This document shows positions 30,153 through 52,562 of a stretch of DNA of 64,000 nucleotides, one piece after another (within the stretch, counting starts at the first letter, position 1; each line of letters begins with the position of its first letter). The DNA comes from Mesoflavibacter profundi (lineage in GTDB: Bacteria > Bacteroidota > Bacteroidia > Flavobacteriales > Flavobacteriaceae), in NCBI RefSeq assembly GCF_014764305.1, contig NZ_CP061703.1:2200800-2264799 (forward strand). Direction: 5' to 3'. A program made the translations under genes and the position numbers. The notes below the pieces were generated by a model. That model had not been told where the DNA came from, searched no databases, and saw nothing but the letters and a program-made list of their open reading frames with translations.

Positions 30153-31022
30153 TTGAATACAGAAAACAAGTCTGAAAATTGGTTATATACCATTTCGCCA
30201 AAAAAAAAATTAGTAGATTTTAATTTTAAAGAAATTTGGCGATATCGTGATTTACTTTTTTTATTTGTTAAACGAGACATTATTACGGTTTATAAACAGA
30301 CTATTTTAGGACCGTTATGGTTTTTAATTCAACCCTTATTTACTGCTGTTGTTTTTACTTTAATTTTTAATAATTTAGGTCAAATAGAAACTGGAGCTGT
30401 TCCAGCTTTTTTATTTAATATGGCAGGAATAACAGCTTGGAATTATTTTAAGGAATGTTTATCAGGAACATCAGATACTTTTGTAAAAAACCAAGCTATT
30501 TTTGGTAAAGTTTATTTTCCAAGAGTCATTATGCCTATGACGGTAACTATTTCTAATTTATTAAAATTTGGAATTCAGTTGCTTATCTTCTTGTTGTTTT
30601 ACCTTTACTATTATTTTTCGGGAAGTCATATTTCCCCTAATGCACACATAGTTTTATTACCATTTTATGTGTTAATAATGGCATTGTTAGGTCTAGGATT
30701 TGGTATGATTTTATCCTCGTTAACTACAAAATATAGAGATTTAACCGTATTAGTTAGTTTTGGTGTATCATTGTTAATGTATTTATCTGCTGTTCCTTAT
30801 CCAGTTGCAGAAGCTAAAGCAAAATTCCCAACTTACATATCTAATTTTGTAGAGTATAATCCTTTAACTCAAGTGGTTGAAGGATTTAGATACATGCTAT
30901 TAAATACTGGTAGTTTTGATTGGAGTAAATTTATATACACACTAATAATTAGTATAGTCGTTTTCTTGTTAGGATTAGTAATTTTTAACCGTACAGAAAA
31001 ATCTTTTATAGACACTGTTTAG
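30153..31022 (+). CDS. wzm: Wzm-like ABC-2 transporter permease for polysaccharide
   Basis: The 289-residue permease has six predicted membrane segments. Its family motif VYKQTILGPLWFLIQP sits near residue 48, and the C-terminal part contains the YNPLTQVVEGFRY motif. Together with the downstream ATPase it would move a lipid-linked glycan across the inner membrane. The only in-frame candidate start near the conserved N-terminus (KSENWLYTISPKKKLVDFNFKE) is TTG at 30153; the first internal ATG falls past residue 85, too late. TTG starts are uncommon in this group. The 92-base gap after wzc may hold a weak internal promoter (TTTATTTG at about 30120). Confidence 0.9.
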   Translation: MNTENKSENWLYTISPKKKLVDFNFKEIWRYRDLLFLFVKRDIITVYKQTILGPLWFLIQPLFTAVVFTLIFNNLGQIETGAVPAFLFNMAGITAWNYFKECLSGTSDTFVKNQAIFGKVYFPRVIMPMTVTISNLLKFGIQLLIFLLFYLYYYFSGSHISPNAHIVLLPFYVLIMALLGLGFGMILSSLTTKYRDLTVLVSFGVSLLMYLSAVPYPVAEAKAKFPTYISNFVEYNPLTQVVEGFRYMLLNTGSFDWSKFIYTLIISIVVFLLGLVIFNRTEKSFIDTV

Positions 31023-31066: not shown

Positions 31067-32335
31067 ATGACAAAAGATAAAGTAATATTAAAAGTAGACA
31101 ATATCTCGAAGCAATACCGATTAGGATTAGTTGGTACTGGTACTTTAAGTCATGATTTAAATAGATGGTGGCATAGAATAAGAGGAAAAGAAGACCCTTA
31201 TTTAAAAATAGGTGAAGAAAACGATCGCAGTAAAAAAGCAAAATCCAGTTACGTTTGGGCTTTACAAGACGTTAGTTTTGAGGTTGAAAAAGGAGAAGTA
31301 CTAGGTATTATAGGAAAAAATGGAGCAGGAAAATCTACATTATTAAAAATATTATCTAAAGTTACTGGACCTACAACAGGAGAAATAAAATCTAAAGGTA
31401 GAATAGCGTCTTTATTAGAAGTTGGAACAGGTTTTCATGGCGAAATGACTGGAAGAGAAAATATCTATTTAAATGGTGCAATTTTAGGGATGACTAAAAA
31501 AGAAATTTCTTCTAAAATTGAAGATATAATAGCTTTTAGTGGTTGCGAGAGATACATAGATACACCTGTAAAAAGATATAGTAGTGGTATGACAGTTAGG
31601 CTGGCGTTTGCTGTTGCTGCATTTTTAGAACCAGAAATTTTGGTGGTAGATGAAGTCTTAGCTGTAGGTGATGCAGATTTCCAAAAAAAAGCTATAGGGA
31701 AGATGCAAGACTTAAGTAAAGGCGAAGGAAGAACAGTGCTTTTTGTAAGTCATAATATGGCAGCTGTAGAGAGTTTGTGTACTAGAGTAATAATGATGCA
31801 AAACGGAAAATTAGTTTCTAATGGATTACCAAAAGATATCATTTCAGAGTATTTAAAAGATAAATCATTTTCTACTCAAACTTACAAAGCAGCTTCGGTA
31901 AATGAAGCAATAGGTAATAATGGGATTAAAATTTTAGAAGCTTCTATTTTACCAGAGAATACTTCAGATTCTGTAATAGATGTTTCTTCTAAAGCAATTT
32001 TTAAATTACAAATCCTTAACCAATCTAATTTTGAAGACTTATCTGTTGGCTTTGATTTAAAAACAATTAGAGGTGAAGTTATTTTTAGTACAGGTCATTT
32101 AATTTCAATTAAAAAGGAAGAAACAATTACATTAAATTGCGAAATTCCTAGCAATTTTTTAAACAATATAACTTATCAAGTACATGTATATATTCATAAT
32201 AGTAATATGTACAAACTATTTGAAAACAGAGAATTATTAGCATTTGATGTTAAGGATATTAAACGCGAATCTGGTTATTTAGGTAAGGTTAATGGTATGG
32301 TAAGACCAAAATTAAATTGGAATATTATAAACTAG
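31067..32335 (+). CDS. wzt: Wzt-like ABC transporter ATP-binding subunit
   Basis: The 422-residue protein has an ATPase domain (about residues 1-250) with Walker A GKNGAGKST near residue 86, Walker B ILVVDEVLAVGDADF near 189 and signature YSSGMTVRLAFA. A C-terminal beta-sandwich domain (about 290-420) resembles the carbohydrate-binding part of O-antigen Wzt proteins. This fits an ABC transporter that recognises a specific end on the glycan, so it would set which polymer is exported. It lies 44 bases downstream of wzm; the 3' end is 5 bases before the next ATG. Confidence 0.9.
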   Translation: MTKDKVILKVDNISKQYRLGLVGTGTLSHDLNRWWHRIRGKEDPYLKIGEENDRSKKAKSSYVWALQDVSFEVEKGEVLGIIGKNGAGKSTLLKILSKVTGPTTGEIKSKGRIASLLEVGTGFHGEMTGRENIYLNGAILGMTKKEISSKIEDIIAFSGCERYIDTPVKRYSSGMTVRLAFAVAAFLEPEILVVDEVLAVGDADFQKKAIGKMQDLSKGEGRTVLFVSHNMAAVESLCTRVIMMQNGKLVSNGLPKDIISEYLKDKSFSTQTYKAASVNEAIGNNGIKILEASILPENTSDSVIDVSSKAIFKLQILNQSNFEDLSVGFDLKTIRGEVIFSTGHLISIKKEETITLNCEIPSNFLNNITYQVHVYIHNSNMYKLFENRELLAFDVKDIKRESGYLGKVNGMVRPKLNWNIIN

Positions 32336-32340
32336 TTTTT

Positions 32341-34212
32341 ATGAAGTGGATTAATACTGTTTTTAATAAAAAAGTAGATGCAATAGGCTTATCTATATTT
32401 AGAATTTTATATTCTATTGTGTTGTTTTTTGAAATTAAACAACTTTACACCTTTAGACATTTAATTTATGATAAAGACCCTTACAGAATTATAGGAGAAT
32501 TAGATGTAGCATTTATCTTTAAATTTTGGTTTGTTATCGTATTGTTTTTATGTGTAGGTATATTTAAAAGATTAACAACAATAATAAACTACATATTTTC
32601 TGTAGTAATATTTAGTTCTGCAATTACATTTGAGTATCATGTGTTTTATGCCTACGTAGGTATAAATTTTTTATTAATGTTTATGCCTATAAATAGGGTA
32701 TTGTCTATAGATGCATTAATAGAAAAATTAAAATACTCTGTCATGAGTAGGCAATATAAAATTGATAGAAAAATTTTAAAAATAAATTATCTAATTGTTG
32801 TTTTTGCAGCATTAGGATTAGTTTATTTTGATTCTATTTTTCATAAATTATCAAGTGTTATGTGGACCAAAGGATTAGGCGTTTGGTTGCCTTCCAGTTT
32901 ACCAATGGTTACTTGGACAGATTCTACTTGGCTTCTAAACCAAAAATGGTTAATGTTATTTTTAGGATACTTAGTTTTAGTGTTTGAAACCGTTTTTATA
33001 GCTTTATTTTGGTTTAAACGCTACAGGATTGTACTTCTATCTATAGGATTGTTTTTGCATATAGGAATTTTAATTACATATCCAATACCTTGGTTTGCAC
33101 TAACAGCAATAGTTGTATATGTTTTAATGGTTCCAATTTCTTTTTGGTTAAAGATTTCTAATAGCCTTAAATTAAAAAGTCCACTTTATAAATTTTATTA
33201 TGATTTAGAATGTCCGTTATGCAATAAAATCATTATTATAATTAAACATTTTGATGTTTTTAACGCAATACAATGTGTAGATGTACAAAATAACTTTACT
33301 AAAGAAGAGGCTTTTAAGAATATACCAGAAGAAGATGTATTAATAAATATACATGGTGTAGATAAAAACGGAAAGGTTTACATAGGTTACTACGCTTACG
33401 TAAAGTTGTTAAAAGCAATGATTTATACCTATCCTTTAGGTTTAATTTTAAGTTTACCTTTAATTAATGTATTAGGACGTAAATTATACCAGTTAATAGC
33501 AGGAAATCGAATAACAGAAAGATGTACGGTAGATAATTGTAATGTACCTGTATTTACAAATCCAATTTCAGAAAATGAAGAATTATATATATCTGGAGTA
33601 ACTACATTAAAAATTACTAAACTTTTTTGGAAGGTAGTAATAGTTATAATGTTTTTTGGACAAGTATTAATGATTTGGTTTTCACCATTATTTCAGCAAC
33701 ACTATAATGTTTCTATAATAGATAAAGTTTTAAGTTATCCTTACAAAAAACTTAATGATGAATACAAGGATTATTTAGGTCTTACTCATCATCCTGTATT
33801 TATGTACAAAAATCATTTTGAAGATTATAAGTACGTTTTTAAAGTTGTTTCAATAAATTCTAAAAATGAAGAAACTATAATTCCATTATTAAATAACGAT
33901 GCAATGGTTGTAAAAAGTGTTGCAAGAGGAGCATTTTGGGTTAATTCTACTTTTAGAGTTAACGGACCTCATTTTAATTTAAATAAGTACGAAAAAGGAT
34001 TATTGCCATATTTAAGGTATTATGAAACTTTAGAAGAAGATATTAAAGGGTATAAAATTTATTATAAAACTATAAATCCGGTAAATCAATGGAGTAAAGA
34101 TTTTTTAATAAATAATATTAATTCTCCATGGAAATCATGCGGTTTTATAAAACCTTTAAAAAACGAATATCAATTTAATTGGGATAAAGCTTTTGAAGAG
34201 AAGTTAGATTAA
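32341..34212 (+). CDS. HTTM-like membrane protein with DCC thiol-disulfide domain
   Basis: The 623-residue protein has an N-terminal multi-helix region (about residues 1-275) resembling the HTTM / vitamin K-dependent gamma-carboxylase-like family. A DCC (DUF393) domain follows, with the thioredoxin-like C-P-L-C pair at C291 and C294 (YYDLECPLCNK). A second C-terminal membrane segment (about 430-450) is followed by a soluble domain of about 170 residues with no recognised motif. DCC proteins are predicted thiol-disulfide oxidoreductases. I start at ATG 32341, since the earlier in-frame ATG 32317 lies inside wzt. Its place between Wzt and the sugar-nucleotide block suggests a role in glycan maturation, but no substrate is known. 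Confidence 0.78.
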   Translation: MKWINTVFNKKVDAIGLSIFRILYSIVLFFEIKQLYTFRHLIYDKDPYRIIGELDVAFIFKFWFVIVLFLCVGIFKRLTTIINYIFSVVIFSSAITFEYHVFYAYVGINFLLMFMPINRVLSIDALIEKLKYSVMSRQYKIDRKILKINYLIVVFAALGLVYFDSIFHKLSSVMWTKGLGVWLPSSLPMVTWTDSTWLLNQKWLMLFLGYLVLVFETVFIALFWFKRYRIVLLSIGLFLHIGILITYPIPWFALTAIVVYVLMVPISFWLKISNSLKLKSPLYKFYYDLECPLCNKIIIIIKHFDVFNAIQCVDVQNNFTKEEAFKNIPEEDVLINIHGVDKNGKVYIGYYAYVKLLKAMIYTYPLGLILSLPLINVLGRKLYQLIAGNRITERCTVDNCNVPVFTNPISENEELYISGVTTLKITKLFWKVVIVIMFFGQVLMIWFSPLFQQHYNVSIIDKVLSYPYKKLNDEYKDYLGLTHHPVFMYKNHFEDYKYVFKVVSINSKNEETIIPLLNNDAMVVKSVARGAFWVNSTFRVNGPHFNLNKYEKGLLPYLRYYETLEEDIKGYKIYYKTINPVNQWSKDFLINNINSPWKSCGFIKPLKNEYQFNWDKAFEEKLD

Positions 34213-34222
34213 TAAAAGTATT

Positions 34223-35065
34223 ATGAATATACTGGTAACAGGAGTTTATGGGTTTTTAGGTACAGCTATAGCAAATCATTTGGTAGACCAAGATTATGTA
34301 GTTTATGGATTATATAATAAAACTGTATCTAGAACATTAAATCCAAAAGTTACTGTTTGTAATAATTTAGAGGATATACCATCCAAAATAGATATAATTT
34401 ATTGTTGTCATGCAGCTGTAAATTCCGGAAATTTAGTTCTAGATCATAATATTTTAGAAGAAGCGAATCTAAATGCGACAAAACTAATCTTAGAGCAATA
34501 TCCTGCAGTAAAAATAATTTATATATCTACAATTTCTGTTTACAAAAACATTTCAATAATTAAGGAAAAGTCAAAAGAACAACCTAGTTCTTATTATGCA
34601 AAAACTAAGTTGCAAGCAGAACAGTTATTTAAAGATTCGCAAAATAGTTACATAGTTAGATTATCTTCTTTATATGGTCCAAATATGAAAGAAAACACGA
34701 TAATACCAAACTATGTAAACATGGCGTTGCAAAAAAATAAAATAGAAGTTTGGGGAAAAGGAAAAAGGTTGCAAAATTATATATACATTAAAGATGTATT
34801 AGACCTTTTAACCAGATTAATAACTTTTGAAGACGCTATAGATTTTCCTTTATTAGCAGTTGGAGATAAATCTATTTCTAATTTAGAATTAGCTAAAACA
34901 ATAAGTGCTCAAACGCAGGCAAATATTAAATTTATAAACGAAGATAGTTCAGATTCTTATGTGTTTGATAACACGTTAACCCAAAAAACTTTAAATTGGA
35001 CACCAAAGTTTAGTGTAGAAAAAGGACTTATGCAATATATTTCATGGAAGAAAAAACAGTCTTAG
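34223..35065 (+). CDS. NAD-dependent epimerase/reductase (extended SDR)
   Basis: This 280-residue SDR has the N-terminal NAD(P)-binding ILVTGVYGFLGTAIANHL (residues 3-20) and the Y-x3-K catalytic pair in SSYYAKTKLQAEQLF (about 122-136), with the preceding Thr/Ser in YISTISVY. It is shorter than UDP-sugar 4-epimerases, in the size range of RmlD-type reductases and related dehydrogenases. Its 3' end overlaps the ATP-grasp gene by 22 bases, so the products are likely made in step. The substrate is unknown; a nucleotide-linked 4-keto sugar is a reasonable guess from the neighbouring WecE gene. Confidence 0.8.
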   Translation: MNILVTGVYGFLGTAIANHLVDQDYVVYGLYNKTVSRTLNPKVTVCNNLEDIPSKIDIIYCCHAAVNSGNLVLDHNILEEANLNATKLILEQYPAVKIIYISTISVYKNISIIKEKSKEQPSSYYAKTKLQAEQLFKDSQNSYIVRLSSLYGPNMKENTIIPNYVNMALQKNKIEVWGKGKRLQNYIYIKDVLDLLTRLITFEDAIDFPLLAVGDKSISNLELAKTISAQTQANIKFINEDSSDSYVFDNTLTQKTLNWTPKFSVEKGLMQYISWKKKQS

Positions 35066-36024
35066 TAACAGGAATAGGAGGAAATGTAGGTCAAGGAGTA
35101 TTAAGAAATATCAGAGATATAAATTGGCCAATACACATTATAGGTACAAATGTAGAAGCATTTAGCGCAGGCAATCATTTATGTGATAAAACATTTATGG
35201 TACCTTATGCTTATGACAATGATTACATAGATTTTGTTAAAAAAATAGTTGAAGAAGAACATGTAGATCTAATAATACCAACTACAGATTTTGAAGTGTA
35301 TTATCTAAGTTTAAATGCCAATTCCATAAACGCAACTATAGTAGCTTGTGACGCTTCAATAACAAATGTTTATTTAGATAAATATCTATCTTACAAACAC
35401 CATACATCACTAAATATACCTTTTGTACAATCTTGGTTACCATCAGAGTTTGAAGGATTTGAAGGCGATATTATTGTAAAACCAAGAAAAGGTAGAGGAT
35501 CACGAGGTATTACAATAAATCCCAAAGACCCAAAATCATATTCAGACGATTATATGATACAACCTTTACATAAAGGAAAAGAGATAACAACAGCAATTTA
35601 CATTGATAAAAATAAAAGTTTACATGGTATTTTCTCCATGGAACGCCAATTGCAAAATGGAGCAACAAATAAGTGTAAAACAGTAAATACTTTTGATAAT
35701 AAATTAAAAGAAGATATCATTTTAAAAATGATAGATCAAGAAGGAATTAGAGGAAGTTTAAATTTACAATACATTGTAGATAATAATCAAAACATTCATT
35801 TATTTGAGGTGAATTGCAGGATTTCTGGAACAAATTCAATAAGACATAACCTAGGTTTTCAAGATGTTAAGTACATTTTACAAGAATATTTATATCAAGA
35901 AAAACCTTCAAAAGTGTCTAAAAAAGAAGGCGTTGCTATAAGATTATTATATGATGTAATTTATCCTGATGCCAGCACAACTTCAGATTTAAACAATAAA
36001 TCAAGCAATTTTAAAATTTATTAA
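35044..36024 (+). CDS. ATP-grasp ligase (PylC/carbamoyl-phosphate-synthase-like)
   Basis: The 326-residue protein has a Rossmann-type N-terminal region (VLVTGIGGNVGQGVLRNI, residues 6-23) followed by an ATP-grasp fold. The ATP-binding motif is IIVKPRKGRGSRGITI (about residues 143-158) and the metal-binding residues lie in LFEVNCRISGTNSIRHNLG (about 257-275, Glu and Asn). ATP-grasp enzymes form amide or ester bonds through an acyl-phosphate. No aminoacyl or cell-wall ligase signature fits clearly. Position between an SDR (22-base overlap) and a HAD (2-base gap) points to a ligation step on a glycan precursor. The function is not identified. Confidence 0.8.
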   Translation: MEEKTVLVTGIGGNVGQGVLRNIRDINWPIHIIGTNVEAFSAGNHLCDKTFMVPYAYDNDYIDFVKKIVEEEHVDLIIPTTDFEVYYLSLNANSINATIVACDASITNVYLDKYLSYKHHTSLNIPFVQSWLPSEFEGFEGDIIVKPRKGRGSRGITINPKDPKSYSDDYMIQPLHKGKEITTAIYIDKNKSLHGIFSMERQLQNGATNKCKTVNTFDNKLKEDIILKMIDQEGIRGSLNLQYIVDNNQNIHLFEVNCRISGTNSIRHNLGFQDVKYILQEYLYQEKPSKVSKKEGVAIRLLYDVIYPDASTTSDLNNKSSNFKIY

Positions 36025-36026
36025 TT

Positions 36027-36659
36027 ATGAAATATATTTTGTTTGATGTAGCTGGTACATTATTACATAAACCGGAAGTTTACGATAAAATTTTAGAAGT
36101 TCTGTTTAAAAACAATTACAAGGTAGATCTTCAAATTTTAAAGAAGCACCACAAACTTTTATCAGAAGTAATTAAATTTCCAGATCGCACAGATAAAACC
36201 TTTTACCAAAATTTTAATTCAGAATTGCTTTATAGCTTAGGTATAATACCAAATCAAGATATTTTAGAACAAATATTTAAAGCATGCAGCTATTTACCTT
36301 GGCAAGCATTTAATGATTGTAGTGTTTTACAAGAATTAAATATTCCTATAGGTATTATATCTAATTTTAATAGTAGTTTAGAAGATGTTTTAAAGGATAA
36401 AATAGATGTTTCATTCTCAAACATATTTGTTTCAGAAAAAATAGGGTATTCTAAACCAGATATTAGGTTATATAAACTAGCACTGGATAAATTAAATATC
36501 TTACCAGAAGATGTTTTATATATAGGCGATTCATTTAAATTAGATTATCAACCAGCAAGTCAATTAGGAATAAAAACTTTAATAATAGATAGAGATAATT
36601 TTTATCCTAATCATTCTAATATAATTTCATCTTTAGAACAAATTAAAAGCTATATTTAA
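36027..36659 (+). CDS. HAD superfamily hydrolase with DxA motif I
   Basis: The 210-residue HAD protein has motif I at residues 7-11 reading DVAGT, so the usual second Asp of DxD is Ala. Motif II is in IIGISNFNSS (Ser/Thr), motif III is the Lys in GYSKPD and motif IV is IGDSFKLDY. A DxAGT motif is known in phosphonoacetaldehyde hydrolase, while haloacid dehalogenases also lack the second Asp. Sugar phosphatases need that second Asp as acid/base, so a simple phosphatase role is doubtful. It overlaps the NeuD-like gene by one base (TAATG). The substrate is unknown. Confidence 0.82.
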   Translation: MKYILFDVAGTLLHKPEVYDKILEVLFKNNYKVDLQILKKHHKLLSEVIKFPDRTDKTFYQNFNSELLYSLGIIPNQDILEQIFKACSYLPWQAFNDCSVLQELNIPIGIISNFNSSLEDVLKDKIDVSFSNIFVSEKIGYSKPDIRLYKLALDKLNILPEDVLYIGDSFKLDYQPASQLGIKTLIIDRDNFYPNHSNIISSLEQIKSYI

Positions 36660-37288
36660 TGAAAACGTTGGCAATTATTGGCGCAGGAGATTTAGGACAG
36701 CAAATCGCACATTTTGCATTGTCAGACAAACATTATAATAGTGTAGTTTTTTTTGATGATTATACAACGCAAGATCAAATAAAAAATATACCAGTTTTAG
36801 GGACTATAAATAATGTTGTTTCGGCTTATAAAAACAAACAATTTGACGAGCTAATTATTGGTATAGGCTATAAACATTTAGAAGTTAGAAAGACTGTTTA
36901 CGATACGTTTAAAGATCAAGTACCATTTGGTAAAATTATACATTCCTCATGTTATGTAGATCAAACAGCTAAGATTGGGCAAGGTTGTGTGATTTATCCA
37001 AAGGTAAATTTAGATGCTAATACAGAAGTTAAAGAGAATTGTATTTTAAATATTAATTGTACAATAGCGCACGATTCTGTTATAGGTTCACATAGTTTTT
37101 TATCGCCTAGAGTTGCAATTGCTGGATTTGTAAATGTAGAAGAGCAATGTATTTTAGGAATAAATGCTACTATAATAGACAATATAACTATTACTAGTAA
37201 AACCCAATTAGGCGCAGGTACAGTAGTAATTAAATCAATAGAAAAACAAGGGTTATACGTTGGTAATCCTGCAAAATTTATAAGATAA
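36659..37288 (+). CDS. NeuD/PglD-type sugar N- or O-acetyltransferase
   Basis: The 209-residue protein has an N-terminal Rossmann-like half binding the nucleotide sugar (LAIIGAGDLGQQIAHFAL, residues 4-21). Its second half is a left-handed beta helix of hexapeptide repeats (IGQGCVIYP, VKENCILNINCTIAHDSVIG, LGINATIIDNITI) with the catalytic His in NCTIAHDS. The fold is that of PglD and NeuD, acetyl-CoA-dependent enzymes acting on a nucleotide-linked amino sugar or sialic acid. The next gene is WecE-like, so the likely substrate is a 4-amino-4,6-dideoxy sugar. One-base stop/start overlaps with both neighbours indicate coupling. Confidence 0.87.
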   Translation: MKTLAIIGAGDLGQQIAHFALSDKHYNSVVFFDDYTTQDQIKNIPVLGTINNVVSAYKNKQFDELIIGIGYKHLEVRKTVYDTFKDQVPFGKIIHSSCYVDQTAKIGQGCVIYPKVNLDANTEVKENCILNINCTIAHDSVIGSHSFLSPRVAIAGFVNVEEQCILGINATIIDNITITSKTQLGAGTVVIKSIEKQGLYVGNPAKFIR

Positions 37289-38418
37289 TGATTCCATTTA
37301 ATAAACCTTATCTTACAGGTAAAGAACCACATTATATAGAGCAATCTGTGATGTCTGGTAAAATTTCTGGAAATGGAGATTTTACTAAAAAATGCCAACA
37401 CTATTTTGAAGATACTTATAACATAAAAAAAGCCTTATTAACAACTTCTTGCACAGATGCATTAGAGATGTGTGCAATGCTAATAGATTGTAAAGGTTAC
37501 GAGGTTATAGTGCCTTCTTACACATTTGTATCTACAGCTTTAGCATTTGTAAGACAAGGCGCAAAAATTGTGTTTGCAGATTCAAAATCTGATCAACCCA
37601 ATATAGATCCAGAACAAATAGAAGCGTTAATTACCAAAAACACTAAAGCTATAGTAGTGGTACATTATGCTGGTGTTGCTGTAGATATGGATAAAATAAT
37701 GACGTTAGCAAAAACTTATAATTTGTTTGTTATTGAAGATGCTGCGCAAGCAATAGATTCGTATTACAAAGAAAAGCCGTTAGGTAGCATAGGTCATTTA
37801 AGTGCTTTTTCTTTTCATGAGACTAAAAATATAATATCAGGTGAAGGAGGATTATTAGGTATAAATGACAAACAATTTATAGATAGAGCAGAAATTTTAT
37901 GGGAAAAAGGAACAAATAGATCATCTTTTTTTAGAGGCGAAATTAATAAATATGGTTGGGTAGATACTGGATCCTCATTTTTACCATCAGAGGTAATAGC
38001 AGCTTTTTTGTGGGCGCAGATAGAAAATATTAAACCCATACAAGCTAAACGAATAAAAATTTGGGATAATTATTATAACCAATTAAATATTCTAGAACAG
38101 AATAATAAAATCACACTGCCAAAAATTCCTGATTTCGCTACTAATAATGCGCATATGTTTTACATAATTTGTAAAACTGAAAACCAAAGAAGCGAACTAA
38201 TTAAATTTTTAAAAGAAAAGGAAGTCTATGCAGTATTTCATTATTTAAGTTTACATAAAAGTGAATATTACAAAAGTTTAGATTATTACAAAGCAACAGA
38301 CTTACCAAATTCAGATAAGTTTACCTCGCAATTATTAAGATTACCTTTTTATTTTGAATTAGAAGAACAACAACAGCAATTAATAATAGACTTAATTTTA
38401 GAGTTTTTTAATGAGTAA
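37288..38418 (+). CDS. wecE: WecE/RffA-like sugar 4-aminotransferase (DegT family)
   Basis: This 376-residue PLP enzyme is close to WecE (RffA), which converts dTDP-4-keto-6-deoxy-D-glucose to dTDP-4-amino-4,6-dideoxy-D-galactose (dTDP-Fuc4N). Signatures include VPSYTFVSTALAFVRQG, VVVHYAGVAVDMDKIM and VIEDAAQAIDS; the PLP Lys is at about residue 180 in FHETKNIISGEGG. The N-terminus (IPFNKPYLTGKE) is typical of the group. The TAATG overlap with the NeuD-type gene and the 8-base overlap with the WecF-like gene tie the three together. RmlA and RmlB, needed to make the 4-keto sugar, are not in the window. Confidence 0.88.
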   Translation: MIPFNKPYLTGKEPHYIEQSVMSGKISGNGDFTKKCQHYFEDTYNIKKALLTTSCTDALEMCAMLIDCKGYEVIVPSYTFVSTALAFVRQGAKIVFADSKSDQPNIDPEQIEALITKNTKAIVVVHYAGVAVDMDKIMTLAKTYNLFVIEDAAQAIDSYYKEKPLGSIGHLSAFSFHETKNIISGEGGLLGINDKQFIDRAEILWEKGTNRSSFFRGEINKYGWVDTGSSFLPSEVIAAFLWAQIENIKPIQAKRIKIWDNYYNQLNILEQNNKITLPKIPDFATNNAHMFYIICKTENQRSELIKFLKEKEVYAVFHYLSLHKSEYYKSLDYYKATDLPNSDKFTSQLLRLPFYFELEEQQQQLIIDLILEFFNE

Positions 38419-39592
38419 ACCATTAATATATCATATTTGTGAAGACGAAAAATTTATAAATTCTGCTATAAAACAATTTGAAGATGTTTATAGCGGATAC
38501 AATAAATTTTACGTGCTTGTAAAAGATATAACTCAAGAATTTAGATATATTAATACACAGTCGTTTGTTACAAAAGTAGATAGTAATTCTGTTTTAAATA
38601 TTATTGATCAAATAACATCAAAAGACATTGTGGTTTTTCATAGCTTGTCTAAAGATTTCTATGACTTTTGTTTGCAATTACCACAATCAATACAAACAGT
38701 TTGGATGTGTTTTGGTTTTGAGATTTACAACGATCATAACTATACAAAAGACGCACCAATACTTGCGCCAATTACTTTAAAAAAATTTATTAGAAAATCG
38801 CCAAGTGCTAATTACTCGTTTAAAAAACGAGTGAAAAACGCATTAAGGCCAATATATCATACATTAAAAGGAAATAGAGAGTTATCTATTATTAAAAAAA
38901 AAGAAAAATCTATCCAACGTATAGATTATCTAGCAACTTCTTTTAAACAAGAGCATCACAGTATTTGTAAATTTATACAACAGGAGAAAAAAAACTTTAA
39001 ATTTTGGTATTATCCGTTACATTTAATTGTAGATGTAAATGCAAAAATAGAAAGTAATAAAACAGCTATTTTAATCGGTAATTCTGGCTTTAGAACTGGT
39101 AATCATCTAGACGTTTTTAATGCTTTAAAACAATTACCAATTACACAAAGTAAAATATATGTACCACTAAGTTACGGTAACCCAAGTTATATACAAGCAA
39201 TAAAAGAAGAAGGACAACTCATTTTTAAAGATAAATTTAATCCATTACTAACATTTTTACCTTTAGAAGATTACAATCAAATACTAAACACCATAGGAAT
39301 TGCAATATTTTATAATTTTAGGCAACAAGCTGTAGGTAACACGATAGCTATTTTATGGTATGGAGCAAAAGTGTTTTTAAGCGAAAAAAATCCTTTTTAT
39401 CATTATTTAAAAGACTTAGGTGTTATAGTTTTTAGTGTAGAAAAAGATTTAAACGCGCAAAGTATATCAAGTCATTTGGATATAAATCAAATAGAAAACA
39501 ACAGGAAAATATTGTATGATCAGCTTAACCAAAACCAGTTAAAAAGAGATTTAGAAAATCAAATTCATTCCATTTTAAATTTAAATAAATAA
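38411..39592 (+). CDS. wecF: WecF-like TDP-Fuc4NAc glycosyltransferase (GT56 type)
   Basis: This 393-residue protein resembles WecF/RffT of family GT56, which transfers Fuc4NAc from dTDP-Fuc4NAc to a lipid-linked acceptor in enterobacterial common antigen. Family features include ILIGNSGFRTGNHLDVFNAL (about residues 220-239), YVPLSYGNPSYI (about 253-264) and YNFRQQAVGNTIAILWYGAKVFLS (about 300-323). There is no signal peptide. It follows the WecE-like gene with an 8-base overlap. In the enterobacterial pathway WecE, WecD and WecF act in order; here a NeuD-type gene lies where WecD would act. The acceptor lipid in this organism is not known. Confidence 0.82.
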   Translation: MSKPLIYHICEDEKFINSAIKQFEDVYSGYNKFYVLVKDITQEFRYINTQSFVTKVDSNSVLNIIDQITSKDIVVFHSLSKDFYDFCLQLPQSIQTVWMCFGFEIYNDHNYTKDAPILAPITLKKFIRKSPSANYSFKKRVKNALRPIYHTLKGNRELSIIKKKEKSIQRIDYLATSFKQEHHSICKFIQQEKKNFKFWYYPLHLIVDVNAKIESNKTAILIGNSGFRTGNHLDVFNALKQLPITQSKIYVPLSYGNPSYIQAIKEEGQLIFKDKFNPLLTFLPLEDYNQILNTIGIAIFYNFRQQAVGNTIAILWYGAKVFLSEKNPFYHYLKDLGVIVFSVEKDLNAQSISSHLDINQIENNRKILYDQLNQNQLKRDLENQIHSILNLNK

Positions 39593-42650: not shown

Positions 42651-43532
42651 ATGGATATTTCTTTTTTAATAGTCACTAAACATAGAGCAGCCGATTTAAA
42701 AGTAACCTTAGATAAACTCTATAAAATAATAGATTTATCTGTTCATGAAGTTTTAGTTTTAATCGATGGTTGTAATGCTACAGAAGCTATAGTAAAAGAT
42801 TATAATTGGGTAAACTGGACCATTTTACAGCAAAGTGTTAGTGCATCGCCAGCAAGAGCTATACTTTATAAAAAGGCAAAAGGCGACATATTTGTAGGAT
42901 TAGACGACGATGCACATCCGTTAACCACAAATTTTAATAACGCAGTTAAGCATTATTTTGAAATTAATCCAAATTTAGGGATAATCGCATTTCAAGAAGT
43001 TAGAGGATTATTTAACACAGATCAAGATGCTTTACAACACGTTAAAACAGGTGAAGACTATATAACTACAGATTTTATAGGATGTGGTTTTGCAATAAAA
43101 AAATCGGTTTATGAGGCAACAAATGGTTTTCCAAAATGGATGACTATATATGGAGAAGAACCTGCATTGGCTATAGAAGTCTTAGATTTAGGATATGACA
43201 TTTTATATACTTACAATTTACAAGTTAATCATAGGGTAAATACTAAGTTACGTAAACAGCAAGGACGTAATTATTATAGATTTAAACATCAGTTACGCAA
43301 TAGTATACGTTATTATTTGGTGTATCATCCTAAACCTATAAAAAAGCTAATTCGATTGTTGTGGCATAACTTTAAAAGCTATGCATTAACCGATTTTAAA
43401 TATTTTAAAATGTATTGGCAAGTTGTATTTAGTGCTTTGTTTTCTTTACGTTCAATCTTAAAATTTAGACAACCAGTAAAGAGAAGTACCTTATTAAAAC
43501 AGACTAATTTAAAATCAATAAGCTATAGTTAA
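42651..43532 (+). CDS. Family 2 glycosyltransferase
   Basis: This 293-residue GT2-like protein has the N-terminal ISFLIVTKHRAADLKVTLDKL, LVLIDGCNATEA (where VDDGS is usual) and GLDDDAHPL (about residues 83-91) as the metal-binding motif. The C-terminal region is basic (RHQLRNSIRYYL, PKPIKKLIRLLWHNFKSYALTDFKYFK), compatible with peripheral membrane contact. The 3' end overlaps the MBOAT gene by one base (TAATG). Donor and acceptor are unknown. Confidence 0.8.
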   Translation: MDISFLIVTKHRAADLKVTLDKLYKIIDLSVHEVLVLIDGCNATEAIVKDYNWVNWTILQQSVSASPARAILYKKAKGDIFVGLDDDAHPLTTNFNNAVKHYFEINPNLGIIAFQEVRGLFNTDQDALQHVKTGEDYITTDFIGCGFAIKKSVYEATNGFPKWMTIYGEEPALAIEVLDLGYDILYTYNLQVNHRVNTKLRKQQGRNYYRFKHQLRNSIRYYLVYHPKPIKKLIRLLWHNFKSYALTDFKYFKMYWQVVFSALFSLRSILKFRQPVKRSTLLKQTNLKSISYS

Positions 43533-44971
43533 TGTATTTCAACTCTATAGATTTTGCAGTCTTCTTACCAATCGTATTTATATTGTATTGGTTTGTGACT
43601 AATACCCGTTTAAAATTTCAAAATGCGTTATTGGTTTTAGCTAGTTATGTGTTTTATGGTTGGTGGGATTGGCGTTTCTTATCATTAATTATTTTTAGTT
43701 CTTTAGTAGACTATACTATTGGATTACAACTGCAAAACCAAAAAAATCAGTCTAAAAGACGGTTGTTACTTTGGTCAAGTATAGCTGTAAACTTAGGCTT
43801 TTTAGGATTTTTTAAATACTATAATTTTTTTGTAGACAATTTTGTGCAAGCCTTTTCTTTTTTCGGGCATCAAATTAAACCAAATACGTTACAGATTATT
43901 TTACCAGTTGGTATAAGCTTTTACACATTTCAAACCTTAAGTTACACTATAGATGTTTATAAGAAGAAACTAGAGCCAACTAAAGATCTTATTTCATTTT
44001 TAGCATTTGTAAGTTTCTTTCCGCAATTAGTTGCTGGACCAATAGAGCGTGCAACCCATTTATTACCTCAGTTTTATAAACGTAGATATTTTCATTACAG
44101 TAAAGCAATAGATGGTTGTAAGCAAATGCTTTGGGGATTTTTTAAAAAGATTGTTATTGCAGATAATTGTGCCGAGTATGCCAATCAAATTTTTAACAAT
44201 AGCCAAGATTATAACGGTAGTACTTTATTAATAGGCGCATTGTTTTTTACCTTTCAGATTTATGGTGATTTTTCGGGATATTCTGATATTGCCATAGGTA
44301 CTTCTAGATTATTTGGTTTTGATTTAAAACAGAATTTCGCATTTCCGTATTTTTCAAGAGATATTGCCGAATTTTGGCGACGTTGGCACATTAGTTTATC
44401 CACTTGGTTTAGGGATTATTTATACATTCCTTTAGGCGGAAGTCGCGGAAGCACATGGTTAAAAGTGCGCAATACATTTATTATTTTTTTAGTGAGTGGT
44501 TTTTGGCATGGCGCTAATTGGACATTTATAATGTGGGGATTTTTAAATGCACTTTATTTTTTACCATTATTACTTACTAAACGTAATAGAACACATTTAA
44601 ATGTCGTAGCTCAAGATAGATGGTTGCCTAATATAAAAGACGTGTTTTCTATGGGATTAACCTTTGGATTAACAGTGCTAGCTTGGATATTTTTTAGGGC
44701 AGAAACCGTTTGTCATGCGTTTACCTATTTAAAAGAAATCTTTAGTGCTAGTCTATTAAGTTTACCAACAGTAAGACCATTTTACCTGTTTGTTTTATTA
44801 CTGTTTTTTATGTTTATAGAATGGTTAGGTCGTGCAAATGCATATGCGATAGAGCGTTTATTAATACGTAAATCTAAAGCCTTACGATGGAGTTTTTATA
44901 TGTTTTTAATAGTGCTTACTTTTATTTTTAGTAGTCAAACCGAACAAGAATTTATTTATTTTCAGTTTTAA
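43532..44971 (+). CDS. MBOAT family O-acyltransferase (AlgI/DltB-like)
   Basis: The 479-residue polytopic membrane protein has about eleven membrane segments. MBOAT signatures are visible: GISFYTFQTLSYTIDVYKKK (about residues 129-148), the FSGYSDIAIG region (about 248-257), EFWRRWHISLSTWFRDYLYIPLGG (about 285-308) and the catalytic-His motif SGFWHGANWTF (about 327-337). Relatives AlgI and DltB move acyl groups across the membrane for delivery to a periplasmic glycan. The next gene encodes an SGNH-like protein, as in alginate (AlgI with AlgJ/AlgX) and DltB-DltD systems. A one-base overlap with the GT2 gene and abutting stop/start with the SGNH gene indicate coupling. Confidence 0.92.
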   Translation: MYFNSIDFAVFLPIVFILYWFVTNTRLKFQNALLVLASYVFYGWWDWRFLSLIIFSSLVDYTIGLQLQNQKNQSKRRLLLWSSIAVNLGFLGFFKYYNFFVDNFVQAFSFFGHQIKPNTLQIILPVGISFYTFQTLSYTIDVYKKKLEPTKDLISFLAFVSFFPQLVAGPIERATHLLPQFYKRRYFHYSKAIDGCKQMLWGFFKKIVIADNCAEYANQIFNNSQDYNGSTLLIGALFFTFQIYGDFSGYSDIAIGTSRLFGFDLKQNFAFPYFSRDIAEFWRRWHISLSTWFRDYLYIPLGGSRGSTWLKVRNTFIIFLVSGFWHGANWTFIMWGFLNALYFLPLLLTKRNRTHLNVVAQDRWLPNIKDVFSMGLTFGLTVLAWIFFRAETVCHAFTYLKEIFSASLLSLPTVRPFYLFVLLLFFMFIEWLGRANAYAIERLLIRKSKALRWSFYMFLIVLTFIFSSQTEQEFIYFQF

Positions 44972-45874
44972 ATGAAACGATTTTTAACACACATATTTCT
45001 ATTTGCTTTACTATTGTTTTTAGTAGATAAACTCTTTTGTGTGTTATTGTACAATACGGCTCATACTCAAGACGACCAACGATTATTAAACATTCTTGAT
45101 GGACAAATGCAAAAGGATATAATCCTATTAGGCTCATCAAGAGGCGCGCATGATTTTATTGCAAAAACCATAGAAGAAAAAACAGGTCAATCTACTTATA
45201 ACTTATCGTATAGAGGTAGTGATGTTACTTTTCATCACTTTATATTACAGACTTTGATAAACTTTAATAAAGCACCAAAAACAGTAGTGTTAACAATAGA
45301 TCAAACTTATCAATTTGTAGATACAAAAACACTTAATTTTAGGTACGACAAATTATTTGCAGTAAAGAAGAATAATTATATTAATTCTATACTTATAGAA
45401 GAAAATAAACATAGTTATTTTTCTAAATTTTTATGCTTAGGACGATTAAATAAAAACGATTTTAGCTTCACAAAACAACCTGTAAAACCAATAAATAAGC
45501 TGTCTTCTCATGGTTCTAAAATCTTTGTTACAAGTTACGATGCTACAATGGAATTTAATTCTAAATTAACTAATTATAAGATTGAAGCTGAAAATGATAA
45601 TAAAGTCGAAGCATTTAAAGCAATACAGCAATTGTGTAAAGCCAATTCAATTAATTTGGTTTATGCATTTCCGCCTAGTTTTGAAGCGTTTGATCAGCAA
45701 TTCTATAACAGGTTTTTAGATTTAGTAGAACAACCTGAATCTATTTTTGTTTACGACACTTTAAATCAAGATTTTAAGCAAAATAAATACTTTATAGATA
45801 AGTCGCATCTAAATCAAAATGGTGCTAGGATTTTTACTAATTCGTTTTGTGAATTTCTTATAAAAGTTAACTAA
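44972..45874 (+). CDS. SGNH-like partner of the MBOAT protein (DltD/AlgJ-type)
   Basis: The 300-residue protein has a single N-terminal signal anchor (about residues 7-27), then a soluble extracytoplasmic domain. A GSS block I motif is at about 54-56 (ILLGSSRGAHDF) and a D-x-x-H block V at D276 and H279 (DKSHLNQNGARIFT), the catalytic Ser and Asp-His of SGNH esterases/transferases. The stop of the MBOAT gene and its ATG abut, so the two form an acyl-transfer pair that most likely acylates the glycan in the periplasm. The acyl group is unknown (acetyl is most common for polysaccharides). Confidence 0.83.
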   Translation: MKRFLTHIFLFALLLFLVDKLFCVLLYNTAHTQDDQRLLNILDGQMQKDIILLGSSRGAHDFIAKTIEEKTGQSTYNLSYRGSDVTFHHFILQTLINFNKAPKTVVLTIDQTYQFVDTKTLNFRYDKLFAVKKNNYINSILIEENKHSYFSKFLCLGRLNKNDFSFTKQPVKPINKLSSHGSKIFVTSYDATMEFNSKLTNYKIEAENDNKVEAFKAIQQLCKANSINLVYAFPPSFEAFDQQFYNRFLDLVEQPESIFVYDTLNQDFKQNKYFIDKSHLNQNGARIFTNSFCEFLIKVN

Positions 45875-45991: not shown

Positions 45992-47146
45992 ATGACATCA
46001 GTAGGTTTTATTCCTTTAAGAAAAGGGTCTAAAGGTATTCCGGGAAAAAACAAACGTAAAATGGTTGGAAAGCCCTTATTTACTTGGGTTTTAGGAGCTG
46101 CTTTACAATCAGATTTAGATACGGTTTATGTCTATACAGACGATTTAGATATTATTAGTTTTATTGAAAAAGAATATCACTATACAAATAAAATAAAAGC
46201 TTTACAACGTAGCGAAGCTAGCGCAACAGACACAGCAAGTACCGAAAGTGCTATGTTAGAATTTGCTCAAACTTTAGATTACAATTTTGATGCTATATGC
46301 TTGTTGCAAGCTACATCACCTTTTACAACAGCTACAGATATTAATAATAGTTTAGCATTGTTGTCTAAAGGATACGACTCTACAGTTACTGTAGTAAATA
46401 CACATCGATTTATATGGGATGCATCCGGTAAACCATTAAATTACGATTATAAAAATAGACCAAGACGTCAAGATTTTGATGGACTTTTAGTAGAAAATGG
46501 AGCTGTTTATACCTGTTTGGCTTCGGTTTTAAAAACAAAGGAAAACAGATTGGGCGATGCAGTTGGTGTTGTAACTATGCCCGAAGATAGCCTGTATGAA
46601 ATTGATACAGAAAACGATTGGACCGTTGTAGAACAATTACTTATACAGCGTCAACAACAACTAAAAAAAGCCGAAAAAATAACTCATCTAGTACTAGATG
46701 TAGATGGTGTTTTTACAGATGGAACCATAACCTATACAAAAGATGGAGAACATACCAAACAGTTTGATATGCGAGATGGTATGGGATTAGAAATTTTAAG
46801 ACAGTTTGGAGTTACAGTGATGATTATGACTAGTGAACGCTCTGAATTAGTTGCAAAACGTATGGAAAAATTACAAATAGAACATGTGTTTTTAGGTGTA
46901 AAAGATAAACATACATTGCTAACACAATTGGCAAAAACACATCAATTTAGTTTAAATAATGTAGCCTATGTTGGTGATGATGTTAATGATTTAGCAAATA
47001 TTTGTAGCGTTGGTTGGTCTTTAGCACCAAATAATGCTATGCAAGAAGTAATTAATCAAGCCGATATTATTTTACCAAAACCTTCTGGTGCAGGAGCAAT
47101 TAGATCTGCTTGTCAATTTATAAAACAATATAATAAACGCTTTTAG
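45992..47146 (+). CDS. neuA: NeuA-type CMP-sialate synthase fused to a KdsC-like HAD phosphatase
   Basis: The 384-residue bifunctional-looking protein has two domains. Residues 1 to about 225 form a cytidylyltransferase (IPLRKGSKGIPGKNKRKMVGKP at residues 7-28, LLQATSPF, RRQDF), which would make CMP-sialic acid or CMP-legionaminate-type sugar. Residues about 228-384 are a KdsC/YrbI-type HAD with LDVDGVFTDGTIT (DxD near residue 235), TSERS, and YVGDDVNDLANI. In vertebrate CMAS a comparable C-terminal domain exists, and the HAD can act on the 9-phosphate. It is followed by neuB in the same direction (13-base gap), so a nonulosonic acid is being activated here. NeuC is absent from the window. 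Confidence 0.9.
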   Translation: MTSVGFIPLRKGSKGIPGKNKRKMVGKPLFTWVLGAALQSDLDTVYVYTDDLDIISFIEKEYHYTNKIKALQRSEASATDTASTESAMLEFAQTLDYNFDAICLLQATSPFTTATDINNSLALLSKGYDSTVTVVNTHRFIWDASGKPLNYDYKNRPRRQDFDGLLVENGAVYTCLASVLKTKENRLGDAVGVVTMPEDSLYEIDTENDWTVVEQLLIQRQQQLKKAEKITHLVLDVDGVFTDGTITYTKDGEHTKQFDMRDGMGLEILRQFGVTVMIMTSERSELVAKRMEKLQIEHVFLGVKDKHTLLTQLAKTHQFSLNNVAYVGDDVNDLANICSVGWSLAPNNAMQEVINQADIILPKPSGAGAIRSACQFIKQYNKRF

Positions 47147-47159
47147 CGAAATATTTTTT

Positions 47160-48035
47160 ATGAGTACATATAAAAAACCTTATGTCATTGCCGAAATTGG
47201 TTGTAACCATAAAGGCGATATGGAAATAGCAAAAGAATTAATTAAAGTAGCAAAAATCTTTTGTAATGTAGATGCAGTAAAGTTTCAAAAACGACACAAT
47301 AAAGAATTACTAACAGAAGCGCAATACAATGCGCCGCATCCAAATCCTGTAAACTCTTACGGTGATACTTATGGTGAACATCGCGAGTTTTTAGAATTTG
47401 ATGTTAATCAGCACCAAGAGTTAAAAGAGTTTTGTGAAGATATGGGATTGGATTACTCGACATCGGTTTGGGATTTAACATCTGCAAAAGAAATTGCAGG
47501 ATTACAACCAAAATTTATCAAAATACCATCTGCTTGTAATAACAACGAAAAAATGTTAACGTGGTTGTGTGAACATTATGATGGCGAGCTTCATATTTCA
47601 ACAGGAATGACAACTAAAGATGAAATTGAAGATTTAGTAAATCTGTTTAAATCTCATAACCGTGCTAAGGATTTAGTCTTATATAACTGTACATCTGGTT
47701 ACCCAGTTCCGTTTAAAGATGTTTGTTTGTTGGATATTAATATCCTTAAAGAAAAATACGGAGATGCTGTAAAACATATTGGGTTTTCTGGTCATCATTT
47801 AGGTATAGCAGTAGATATGGCAGCCTATACTTTAGGTGCAAATGTTATAGAACGTCATTATACATTAGATCGTACTTGGAAAGGAACAGATCATGCTGCG
47901 TCTTTAGAACCTGCAGGTTTGCGTAAGTTGTCAAGAGATTTAAAAGCAGTATATGAATCTTTGACGTATAAAACACAAGATATTTTACCAATAGAACAAG
48001 TACAACGCGATAAGTTAAAAAATCAGAAAGGATAG
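47160..48035 (+). CDS. neuB: NeuB-type N-acylneuraminate synthase lacking the SAF domain
   Basis: The 291-residue TIM-barrel protein belongs to the NeuB/SpsE family that condenses an N-acyl hexosamine with phosphoenolpyruvate to give a nonulosonic acid. It contains VIAEIGCNHKGDMEIAKELI (residues 8-27), DAVKFQK, FIKIPSACNNNEKML (about 120-134), ISTGMTTKDEIEDL, and FSGHHLGIAVDMAAYTLGANVIERHYTLDRTWKGTDHAASLEP (about 209-251). It stops at about residue 291, where classic NeuB proteins (about 350) still have a C-terminal SAF (antifreeze-like) domain. It is co-directional with neuA (13-base gap). Its hexosamine substrate could be ManNAc or a bacillosamine-derived sugar; sequence does not decide. 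Confidence 0.9.
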   Translation: MSTYKKPYVIAEIGCNHKGDMEIAKELIKVAKIFCNVDAVKFQKRHNKELLTEAQYNAPHPNPVNSYGDTYGEHREFLEFDVNQHQELKEFCEDMGLDYSTSVWDLTSAKEIAGLQPKFIKIPSACNNNEKMLTWLCEHYDGELHISTGMTTKDEIEDLVNLFKSHNRAKDLVLYNCTSGYPVPFKDVCLLDINILKEKYGDAVKHIGFSGHHLGIAVDMAAYTLGANVIERHYTLDRTWKGTDHAASLEPAGLRKLSRDLKAVYESLTYKTQDILPIEQVQRDKLKNQKG

Positions 48036-51797: not shown

Positions 51798-52562
51798 ATG
51801 AAAAATATTTTTATTGTATCTACAGGTAGAACAGGAACACAATTTCTTGCTCATTTTTTTTCAGAAAAAATAAATAACGTAAAATCTGTTCATGAACCAT
51901 TTCCTTCAAGACGATTTAGAATTCTTTCTAATATGTATAGAGAAGGAAAAGTAGGAAAACAAACATTAAAAACAATTTTTAAATGGTCAAGAAAAGATTT
52001 ATTCAAAACAAAAAATCAAGATTATAATTTTTATATAGAAAGTAATAACTTTCTATATGGGTATTCAGGAGTAATAAATGAAATGATTAAGGATGCAAAA
52101 ATCATTCACATTGTTAGAGATCCTAGAGATTACATAAAATCGCATTTAAATCATGGTGTATTTAAAGGAAAAAAGCTTTTAGCTAAAAAATATTTACCCT
52201 ATTGGTTTATGGATGTTACTAAAGAAGTTACAACCAATAAAAAACTAAATCAATACGAAATACTTGCAGCAAGATGGGTGATTGTAAATAAATTTATTGA
52301 AGATTCTTGTAAAGAAAACCCAAATTATAAAATGTTTAAATACGAAGATATTTTTGGGCCTAATAAAAATGACTATTTATATGAAATGGCAAGTTTTATG
52401 GGTTTACCTGCAGATCAAATAGTCTTTAGTGAAAACTATGAAAAATTAAATGTGGGTAAAAAAAATATTGCAAAAACATGGAATTCTTGGCCAGAAGAAG
52501 ACCTAAAAAAAATATATAATATTTGTGGAGATTTAATGAAGCAATATAATTACGAGTTTTAA
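51798..52562 (+). CDS. Sulfotransferase (P-loop, PAPS-type)
   Basis: The 254-residue protein has the 5'-phosphosulfate-binding loop STGRTGTQFLAHFF (residues 7-20) and the 3'-phosphate-binding HIVRDPRDYIKSHLNHG (about residues 103-119). These are the two hallmarks of PAPS-dependent sulfotransferases. There is no signal peptide or membrane helix, so it would act in the cytoplasm on a lipid-linked precursor. It lies in the glycan locus between a GT2 and a hexapeptide acyltransferase. Sulfation of the glycan is therefore plausible; the acceptor is unknown. A second, unrelated sulfotransferase-like gene is at 54356. Confidence 0.83.
   Translation: MKNIFIVSTGRTGTQFLAHFFSEKINNVKSVHEPFPSRRFRILSNMYREGKVGKQTLKTIFKWSRKDLFKTKNQDYNFYIESNNFLYGYSGVINEMIKDAKIIHIVRDPRDYIKSHLNHGVFKGKKLLAKKYLPYWFMDVTKEVTTNKKLNQYEILAARWVIVNKFIEDSCKENPNYKMFKYEDIFGPNKNDYLYEMASFMGLPADQIVFSENYEKLNVGKKNIAKTWNSWPEEDLKKIYNICGDLMKQYNYEF

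Follow-up and report, generated by a model that had tools for sequence, protein, structure and literature searches.

A conserved SDR, ATP-grasp and HAD gene block beside a WecE gene in Mesoflavibacter profundi, with a candidate role in surface-sugar modification

The window considered here, a stretch of 64,000 nucleotides from Mesoflavibacter profundi (contig NZ_CP061703.1, positions 2,200,800 to 2,264,799; the genome is a single contig of 3.09 Mb), contains a compact block of genes encoding an HTTM/DCC membrane protein, an SDR-family protein, an ATP-grasp ligase and a HAD-superfamily hydrolase, followed by genes of a NeuD-type acetyltransferase and the transaminase WecE. The order is conserved in relatives of the ATP-grasp protein, mostly from Bacteroidota. 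With moderate confidence we propose that this conserved operon module makes and decorates a surface sugar derived from dTDP-Fuc4N (dTDP-4-amino-4,6-dideoxygalactose), the ATP-grasp protein forming an N-acyl bond. This defines a conserved gene set, probably for surface-sugar modification, for which no described product was found; its order, partners and motifs can be used for finding that product. The genes are as follows.

32341-34212, forward strand: HTTM/DCC membrane protein with a predicted fold like that of GGCX, the human vitamin-K-dependent gamma-glutamyl carboxylase used in blood clotting, an inserted thioredoxin-like DCC domain (residues 283-405, approximately) and a C-terminal domain
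34223-35065, forward strand: extended SDR protein of the epimerase/dehydratase type, probably a nucleotide-sugar enzyme (PF01370, E 3.6e-27)
35044-36024, forward strand: ATP-grasp ligase of the carbamoyl-phosphate-synthase-like family (PF02655, 28.3 bits, cut-off 23.2)
36027-36659, forward strand: HAD-superfamily hydrolase of a subfamily without the second aspartate of motif I (PF13419 (HAD_2), E 1.9e-13)
36659-37288, forward strand: sugar acetyltransferase of the NeuD/PglD/VioB type (TIGR03570, 184.3 bits, above the cut-off of 160.8)
37288-38418, forward strand: WecE, dTDP-4-amino-4,6-dideoxygalactose transaminase (NF008687, 554 bits, cut-off 375; TIGR02379, 514.7 bits, cut-off 434.85)
38411-39592, forward strand: WecF-like glycosyltransferase of family GT56 (PF07429, 63.4 bits, above the cut-off of 25)

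The start of the HTTM/DCC gene was placed at the ATG at 32341, the mechanical open reading frame (ORF) beginning at a TTG at 32317. The HTTM and SDR genes are separated by 10 bases, the SDR and ATP-grasp genes overlap by 22, the ATP-grasp and HAD genes are separated by 2, and the HAD and NeuD genes overlap by 1. An earlier note, made from the letters of the window, had singled out the first four genes; their coordinates, overlaps and motifs are borne out by the ORF coordinates and domain scans.

In the family survey, 299 genomes of the family were searched with the ATP-grasp protein of the window (E 1e-20 or better). The 11 matches comprise the window itself, five close homologs (48-61% identity) and five remote ones (26-31%). 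All five close genomes retain the order HTTM, SDR, ATP-grasp, HAD, NeuD, WecE, with a GT2 glycosyltransferase gene between HAD and NeuD in four of them. The 20-kb neighbourhoods of four of the five remote homologs contain no block-type SDR or HAD alongside; weak matches there (25-32%) are NeuD-like in L024 and L025 and WecE-like in L027. The conserved unit is thus a feature of the close clade of the ATP-grasp protein.

For the wide survey, an alignment (A1) was compared with 84,980 species genomes, and the best 80 of 88 relatives were kept. The loci were picked by two ATP-grasp peptide patterns, so the sample is biased to the close clade, and the five close genomes seem to recur in it (as L033, L048, L052, L078 and L087), so the two surveys are not independent. 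Near-duplicate loci (e.g. L038/L039, L040/L041) were kept unthinned. Most of the relatives come from Bacteroidota (Flavobacterium, Aquimarina, Chryseobacterium, Sphingobacterium, Pedobacter, Hymenobacter and others). The other labels belong to metagenome-assembled genomes (MAGs) and may be wrong: Planctomycetaceae (4), Deltaproteobacteria (2), an actinobacterium, Opitutales and Dormibacterota (1 each); two further relatives are labelled just 'bacterium'. Genes of the window and the 80 loci were clustered by all-against-all BLAST, with HTTM proteins counted by profile search. Counts over 78 loci omit L046, L064 and L103, which have no member of the ATP-grasp cluster among the ORF calls, and the full-flank set comprises the 55 loci whose flanks exceed 7 kb on both sides. 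The alignments covered 71 of 78 ATP-grasp proteins (A5), 32 of 74 HADs (A7), 26 of 74 SDRs (A8) and 39 of 41 HTTM matches (A6, two short ones dropped); one row of the latter, L100:1184-2755, is a diverged HTTM, probably not of the block type, and is still counted.

The recurring order in the window and its 80 relatives is SDR, ATP-grasp, HAD, (GT2), NeuD, WecE. The clusters have members in 78 (ATP-grasp), 74 (SDR), 74 (HAD), 64 (NeuD), 59 (WecE), 50 (GtrB-like GT2) and 35 (HTTM) of these loci. SDR is the next gene upstream of ATP-grasp in 72/78 loci and HAD the next gene downstream in 71/78; of the 72 adjacent SDR/ATP-grasp pairs, 42 overlap by exactly 22 bases. The full-flank loci contain SDR in 53 cases, HAD in 53, NeuD in 47, WecE in 47, GtrB-like genes in 37 and HTTM in 26, and, more rarely, RmlB (12), acyltransferase-3 (9) and WecF-like genes (4). 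A GtrB-like gene without a WecF-like one is present in 37 of them, the reverse in 4, neither in 14 and both in none, and the two look like alternatives. Seemingly free-standing operons were found in L059 and L060, with the genes HTTM, putative acyltransferase-3, SDR, ATP-grasp, HAD, GtrB-like, NeuD and WecE. Membrane proteins read as acyltransferase-3 from sequence occur in these two loci and in L066, L070, L082, L099 and others.

The survey of gene order and of co-occurring sugar genes suggested by the earlier note thus finds SDR, ATP-grasp, HAD and NeuD kept as a unit, above all in Bacteroidota, with WecE present in 59/81 loci. The four-gene block described there is real and conserved, but it is part of a larger unit to which NeuD and WecE belong, mostly together with a GtrB/ArnC-like glycosyltransferase.

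The block ATP-grasp is uncommon: a sample of 395 genomes of the phylum contains it in three, one of them the genome of the window. Among the 299 family genomes, WecE scores over its cut-off in 29, and block-type HTTM proteins (E below 1e-100) occur in seven; the next HTTM matches have E 2e-25 or worse. The seventh HTTM genome, G197, has no ATP-grasp match, and its HTTM frame contains a stop. All six close ATP-grasp carriers, the window counted, have WecE (hypergeometric probability 5e-7) and a block-type HTTM (7e-12). Both probabilities include the window and assume independent genomes, although two of the carriers belong to one genus; the second is also partly circular, because the HTTM profile (A6) was built from block-side proteins, all six genomes included. 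The correlations of protein distances with those of ATP-grasp (HAD 0.83, NeuD 0.76, SDR 0.74, HTTM 0.68, WecE 0.55, GtrB 0.42) are inflated by common species descent and were calculated on sets of loci that differ between proteins; their ranking suggests an inner unit of ATP-grasp, HAD, NeuD and SDR with an exchanged glycosyltransferase.

The circularity and the inflation weigh against a common Fuc4N pathway, as do the following observations. A close ATP-grasp is absent from 23 of the 29 WecE genomes. Eight of the 55 full-flank loci have no WecE nearby, and HTTM is near the block in just 26. Finally, the order is only partly retained outside Bacteroidota: in the nine MAG loci with other labels, some of them on short contigs, SDR is next upstream in four (L095, L096, L097, L100) and HAD next downstream in three (L096, L098, L105), and L096 alone has HTTM, SDR, ATP-grasp, HAD, GtrB-like and NeuD genes together. 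HTTM directly adjoins SDR or ATP-grasp in all four Planctomycetaceae MAGs.

The proposed pathway would proceed as follows. WecE, according to the curated models, would make dTDP-Fuc4N. The ATP-grasp protein may activate a carboxylate as acyl phosphate and couple it to an amine, which is most likely the sugar's 4-amino group or one on its first substituent. NeuD would acetylate an amine, and the SDR and HAD proteins may serve to build or trim either the substituent or the sugar. The sugar would then be transferred by the WecF-like enzyme in the cytoplasm in the window strain, or to a lipid carrier by the GtrB/ArnC-like enzyme in many relatives. At the membrane, the HTTM/DCC protein may modify the sugar or the glycan with the help of menaquinol, possibly as the last step. 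What the analysis shows is conservation, gene order, co-occurrence, motifs and predicted folds; beyond the annotations of WecE and NeuD we infer every chemical step, including which acid is used, which bond is formed and what SDR and HAD do.

The dTDP-glucose 4,6-dehydratase required to supply WecE is encoded elsewhere in the same genome, and the WecF-like GT56 protein is the probable user of the sugar in the window strain. As in the synthesis of enterobacterial common antigen, WecE, which scores over its curated cut-off, is encoded next to a GT56 transferase. However, the WecF-like protein is below all NCBIfam WecF cut-offs (best 149.6 bits against 457), genes of Wzm/Wzt-type export are near, and SDR, ATP-grasp and HAD are extra; with this transferase score and these additional genes, enterobacterial common antigen is rejected as a full explanation. 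The more frequent arrangement resembles the ArnC/GtrB route, in which a sugar is placed on undecaprenyl phosphate and then transferred by a GT-C enzyme: GT2 proteins of one cluster occur in 50/81 loci, one scanned member is closest to the PgfS and ArnC models, and PMT_2 was found in two of nine scanned membrane neighbours. The differences are that the scores are below the curated cut-offs and that the window has no such GT2 gene close to the block; the WecF-like gene may stand in for it there.

The DCC domain of the membrane protein, noticed earlier by its C-x2-C motif, is real (PF04134, E 2.2e-17; motif C-P-L-C). PF05090 (HTTM) scores 19.7 bits, below the cut-off of 27.7, but the HTTM assignment is supported by the predicted fold. 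A Foldseek search with the AlphaFold2 model (mean predicted local distance difference test, pLDDT, 91.7) has GGCX chains as its 16 top matches (best E 1.3e-5; TM-scores over the whole chain 0.20-0.41), and 16 GGCX chains likewise lead in VIA-align. There the GGCX chain 9bvq_A has Z 23.6 and a root-mean-square deviation (rmsd) of 3.4 over 295 residues, the next unrelated chain having Z 7.1; the rmsd is about 8 once the C-terminal domain is included, which limits the firm match to the membrane domain. GGCX is also the sole, weak match of the profile of 39 block HTTMs against PDB (E 0.013). By its predicted structure the HTTM protein is a GGCX-like membrane protein; roughly half of the loci have one next to the block.

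The membrane domain shares with GGCX not only the fold but also counterparts of residues of the vitamin-K site: K169 corresponds to Lys218, H100 to His160, V161 to Val210, W175 to Trp223 and F252 to Phe299 (numbered by hand count, two GGCX chains being offset by 31). Four of them are almost invariant in the 39 HTTMs (K169 39/39, H100 38/39, W175 38/39, F252 39/39). According to PMC12589487, Lys218 of GGCX is the base for the hydroquinone, the other aligned residues line the naphthoquinone or glutamate pocket, and Asn159 coordinates the substrate glutamate. The counterpart of Asn159 is not kept, being Tyr in 38/39 HTTMs, which makes a peptide glutamate an unlikely substrate. Further differences from GGCX are the often inserted DCC domain, the glycan operon context and another C-terminal motif, H484 and H492, for which the GGCX counterpart is approximate: model residues 489-495 stand opposite GGCX 404-407, and the sequence alignment may be shifted there.

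The lysine and histidine are retained in five canonical HTTM proteins as well, two from the source genome, where they are encoded outside the window (1553605-1554381, L119; 2285460-2286230, L120), and three from other genomes; they are therefore residues of the wider family and not special to the block. One of the canonical proteins of the source genome aligns with GGCX nearly full-length (residues 4-448, E 1.7e-37). The DCC domain lies in the model between the last two long membrane helices, which, judged against GGCX, would put it on the cytoplasmic side. C-x2-C is present anywhere in 27/39 HTTMs, and its CPxC, CLxC or CGxC form is missing in 16/39. Two or three HTTM paralogs in tandem occur inside the block in L054, L066 and L072, which suggests diversification of the HTTM protein.

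It is possible, although on the unlikely side, that the HTTM protein is a non-catalytic membrane partner, a scaffold or thiol redox helper, and that SDR, ATP-grasp and HAD alone do the chemistry. This would fit the 29 of 55 full-flank loci without a nearby HTTM, the lack of a DCC domain in four of six proteins compared, the PF05090 score below its cut-off and the low whole-chain TM-scores with GGCX; the near-invariant residues aligned with the vitamin-K site argue for catalysis. A specific catalytic role, which we consider doubtful, is that of a GGCX-type C-H carboxylase dependent on menaquinol (or a base-driven oxidase or epimerase) that acts not on a protein but on the acyl group added to Fuc4N by the ATP-grasp protein, on a lipid carrier or on the finished glycan; a malonate-like, calcium-binding sugar could result, which would amount to vitamin K chemistry on a bacterial surface polysaccharide, with the DCC thiol feeding the quinone cycle. 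If the GGCX-like partner is catalytic, vitamin K chemistry would have a setting outside proteins as well, which might help to explain what bacterial HTTM proteins do.

The AlphaFold2 model of the ATP-grasp protein (mean pLDDT 95.4) has the fold expected. The structure closest to it, 2pn1 (Z 32.5; rmsd 2.1 for 291 residues), bears the title carbamoylphosphate synthase large subunit (split gene); GAR synthetase, PurK and PylC come next at Z 25-26, and biotin carboxylase at Z 24-25. The nearest sequence family is likewise carbamoyl phosphate synthase-like (NF009402, PRK12767), from which the protein differs in scoring 167 bits, below the cut-off of 218; the homolog from L037 is also below it (174.7 bits). 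No TupA-like chain is among the matches listed for the structure comparison, which excludes nothing. Residues K146, E180, N240, Q242, E255, N257 and R259 are present in 78/78 relatives, including the E-x-N motif (E255-x-N257) that the first reading of the sequence had called intact, and we take the site to be intact. These are taken to be the residues that bind ATP and metal; the pattern N240-x-Q242...E255-x-N257-x-R259 resembles the metal site of carbamoyl-phosphate synthase (E. coli Gln285, Glu299, Asn301).

Another mode of action, which we think rather improbable, is N-carboxylation or carbamoylation of an amine by way of carboxyphosphate, as in PurK, biotin carboxylase and carbamoyl-phosphate synthase. 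It would account for the nearest NCBIfam family, for PurK and biotin carboxylase among the nearest folds (Z about 24-26) and for the invariant N-x-Q...E-x-N-x-R (78/78) with its presumed metal site. However, the amide-formers GAR synthetase and PylC are about as near by fold, and the NCBIfam score does not reach the cut-off. Since the fold neighbours mix amide-formers and N-carboxylators, the fold alone cannot separate amide formation from N-carboxylation, which is a further point against the proposed N-acyl bond.

In the SDR proteins, Tyr-x3-Lys (Y125 and K129) is present in 74/74 and the first glycine of the Gly motif in 73/74, the rest of that motif being variable (GSNSFLG, GANSFLS). Among solved chains, the closest to them are for the most part dehydratases, epimerases and reductases of nucleotide sugars.

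Motif I of HAD phosphatases is DxDx(T/V), the second aspartate being the general acid. In the window this motif is DVAGT, and the alteration, already seen in the earlier note, is the rule across the subfamily: the 74 proteins have DAANT (37), DVAGT (12), DVSGT (11), DVANT (7) or other variants (7), and none has the second aspartate, its position being occupied by A, S or, once, C. The other superfamily residues, D7 (nucleophile), K143 (motif III lysine) and D168 and D173 (motif IV acids), are present in 74/74. The missing general acid argues against a standard phosphomonoesterase, and the motifs indicate that the HAD protein is probably not an ordinary phosphatase. The solved chain nearest to the HAD profile is 2zg6, an uncharacterised archaeal protein (E 3.8e-25); other matches include phosphatases, 2-haloacid dehalogenases, L-azetidine-2-carboxylate hydrolase, cis-epoxysuccinic hydrolase and HDHD3. 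Such HADs without the second aspartate adjoining the block ATP-grasp present a second tractable enzyme question.

The closest published analogue found is the HS:2 capsule pathway of Campylobacter jejuni, in which, according to PMC11800379, an ATP-grasp enzyme and a HAD phosphatase (Cj1438C and Cj1435) jointly add an amide-linked group to a capsule sugar. Cj1438C is TupA-like, forms one chain with a glycosyltransferase and uses glucuronic acid with serinol-P or ethanolamine-P (PMC11800379), whereas the block has a stand-alone ATP-grasp of the carbamoyl-phosphate-synthase-like type beside Fuc4N genes. A Campylobacter-type route via a phosphorylated amine is weakened by the absence of the general-acid aspartate from 74/74 HADs, which also detracts from the proposed pathway.

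It was suggested in the earlier note that an ATP-grasp enzyme in a glycan locus implies an amide or ester bond. The amide has a capsule precedent in Cj1438C; N-carboxylation is also compatible by fold, and nothing specific supports an ester. The note's remark that no named pathway with this exact set is known agrees with the open-licence literature, where no paper describing the gene set was found; it was covered mostly at title level, so absence from print is unproven. PMC11167607 concerns an unrelated ATP-grasp gene.

The same precedent allows an alternative independent of Fuc4N, namely that the block amidates the carboxylate of a uronic or nonulosonic acid, as Cj1438C/Cj1435 do. In the window and in several relatives, genes of NeuB and a CMP-transferase lie close to the block, and the published pair combines ATP-grasp and HAD in a capsule pathway (PMC11800379). 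However, the cluster of putative NDP-sugar dehydrogenases is present in 13/81 loci and the clusters of putative NeuB in 5/81 and 8/81, against 59/81 for WecE, and the HAD protein has no phosphatase general acid; we regard this alternative as quite improbable. The weakest explanation, a loose cassette of neighbours in a hypervariable glycan locus with no common pathway, is most improbable, since, although glycan loci are mosaics and the distances of GtrB and WecE track those of ATP-grasp less well (r 0.42 and 0.55), it is contradicted by the conserved order, the 22-base overlap in 42/72 pairs and the co-occurrence, every close ATP-grasp carrier among the 299 genomes having both WecE and HTTM.

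The earlier note placed the block between an ABC exporter and a Fuc4NAc module. Its surroundings conform to this, with a Wzt-like gene upstream and the NeuD, WecE and WecF-like genes downstream. The export genes are as follows.

30153-31022, forward strand: Wzm-like ABC permease, export context, named from its position adjoining Wzt; the same cluster is present in 11/81 loci
31067-32335, forward strand: Wzt-like ABC ATPase with a carbohydrate-binding C-terminal domain, export context (PF00005; PF14524 (Wzt_C), 31.1 bits, cut-off 30.4)

Several further features of the glycan locus were observed. Positions 45992-48035 encode a fused cytidylyltransferase and KdsC/KDN-9-phosphatase-like protein and a short NeuB (291 aa). 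Both are below the NCBIfam cut-offs for specific acids, the YrbI phosphatase subfamily alone being reached, and the product is perhaps a Kdn-like nonulosonic acid. Close relatives of the pair (72% and 87% identity) adjoin the block in G193. Two sulfotransferase-domain proteins (51798-52562 and 54356-55051; PF00685, PF17784) hint at a sulfated glycan. At 43532-45874, an MBOAT O-acyltransferase gene is followed by a gene whose product has a sub-threshold match to DUF1574; we take this pair to be AlgI/AlgJ-like by analogy. The 392-aa protein encoded at 49637-50815 has no Pfam or NCBIfam match, and the one at 57736-58767 is an Exostosin GT47-like glycosyltransferase barely above the cut-off, with a sub-threshold match to RXYLT1_C.

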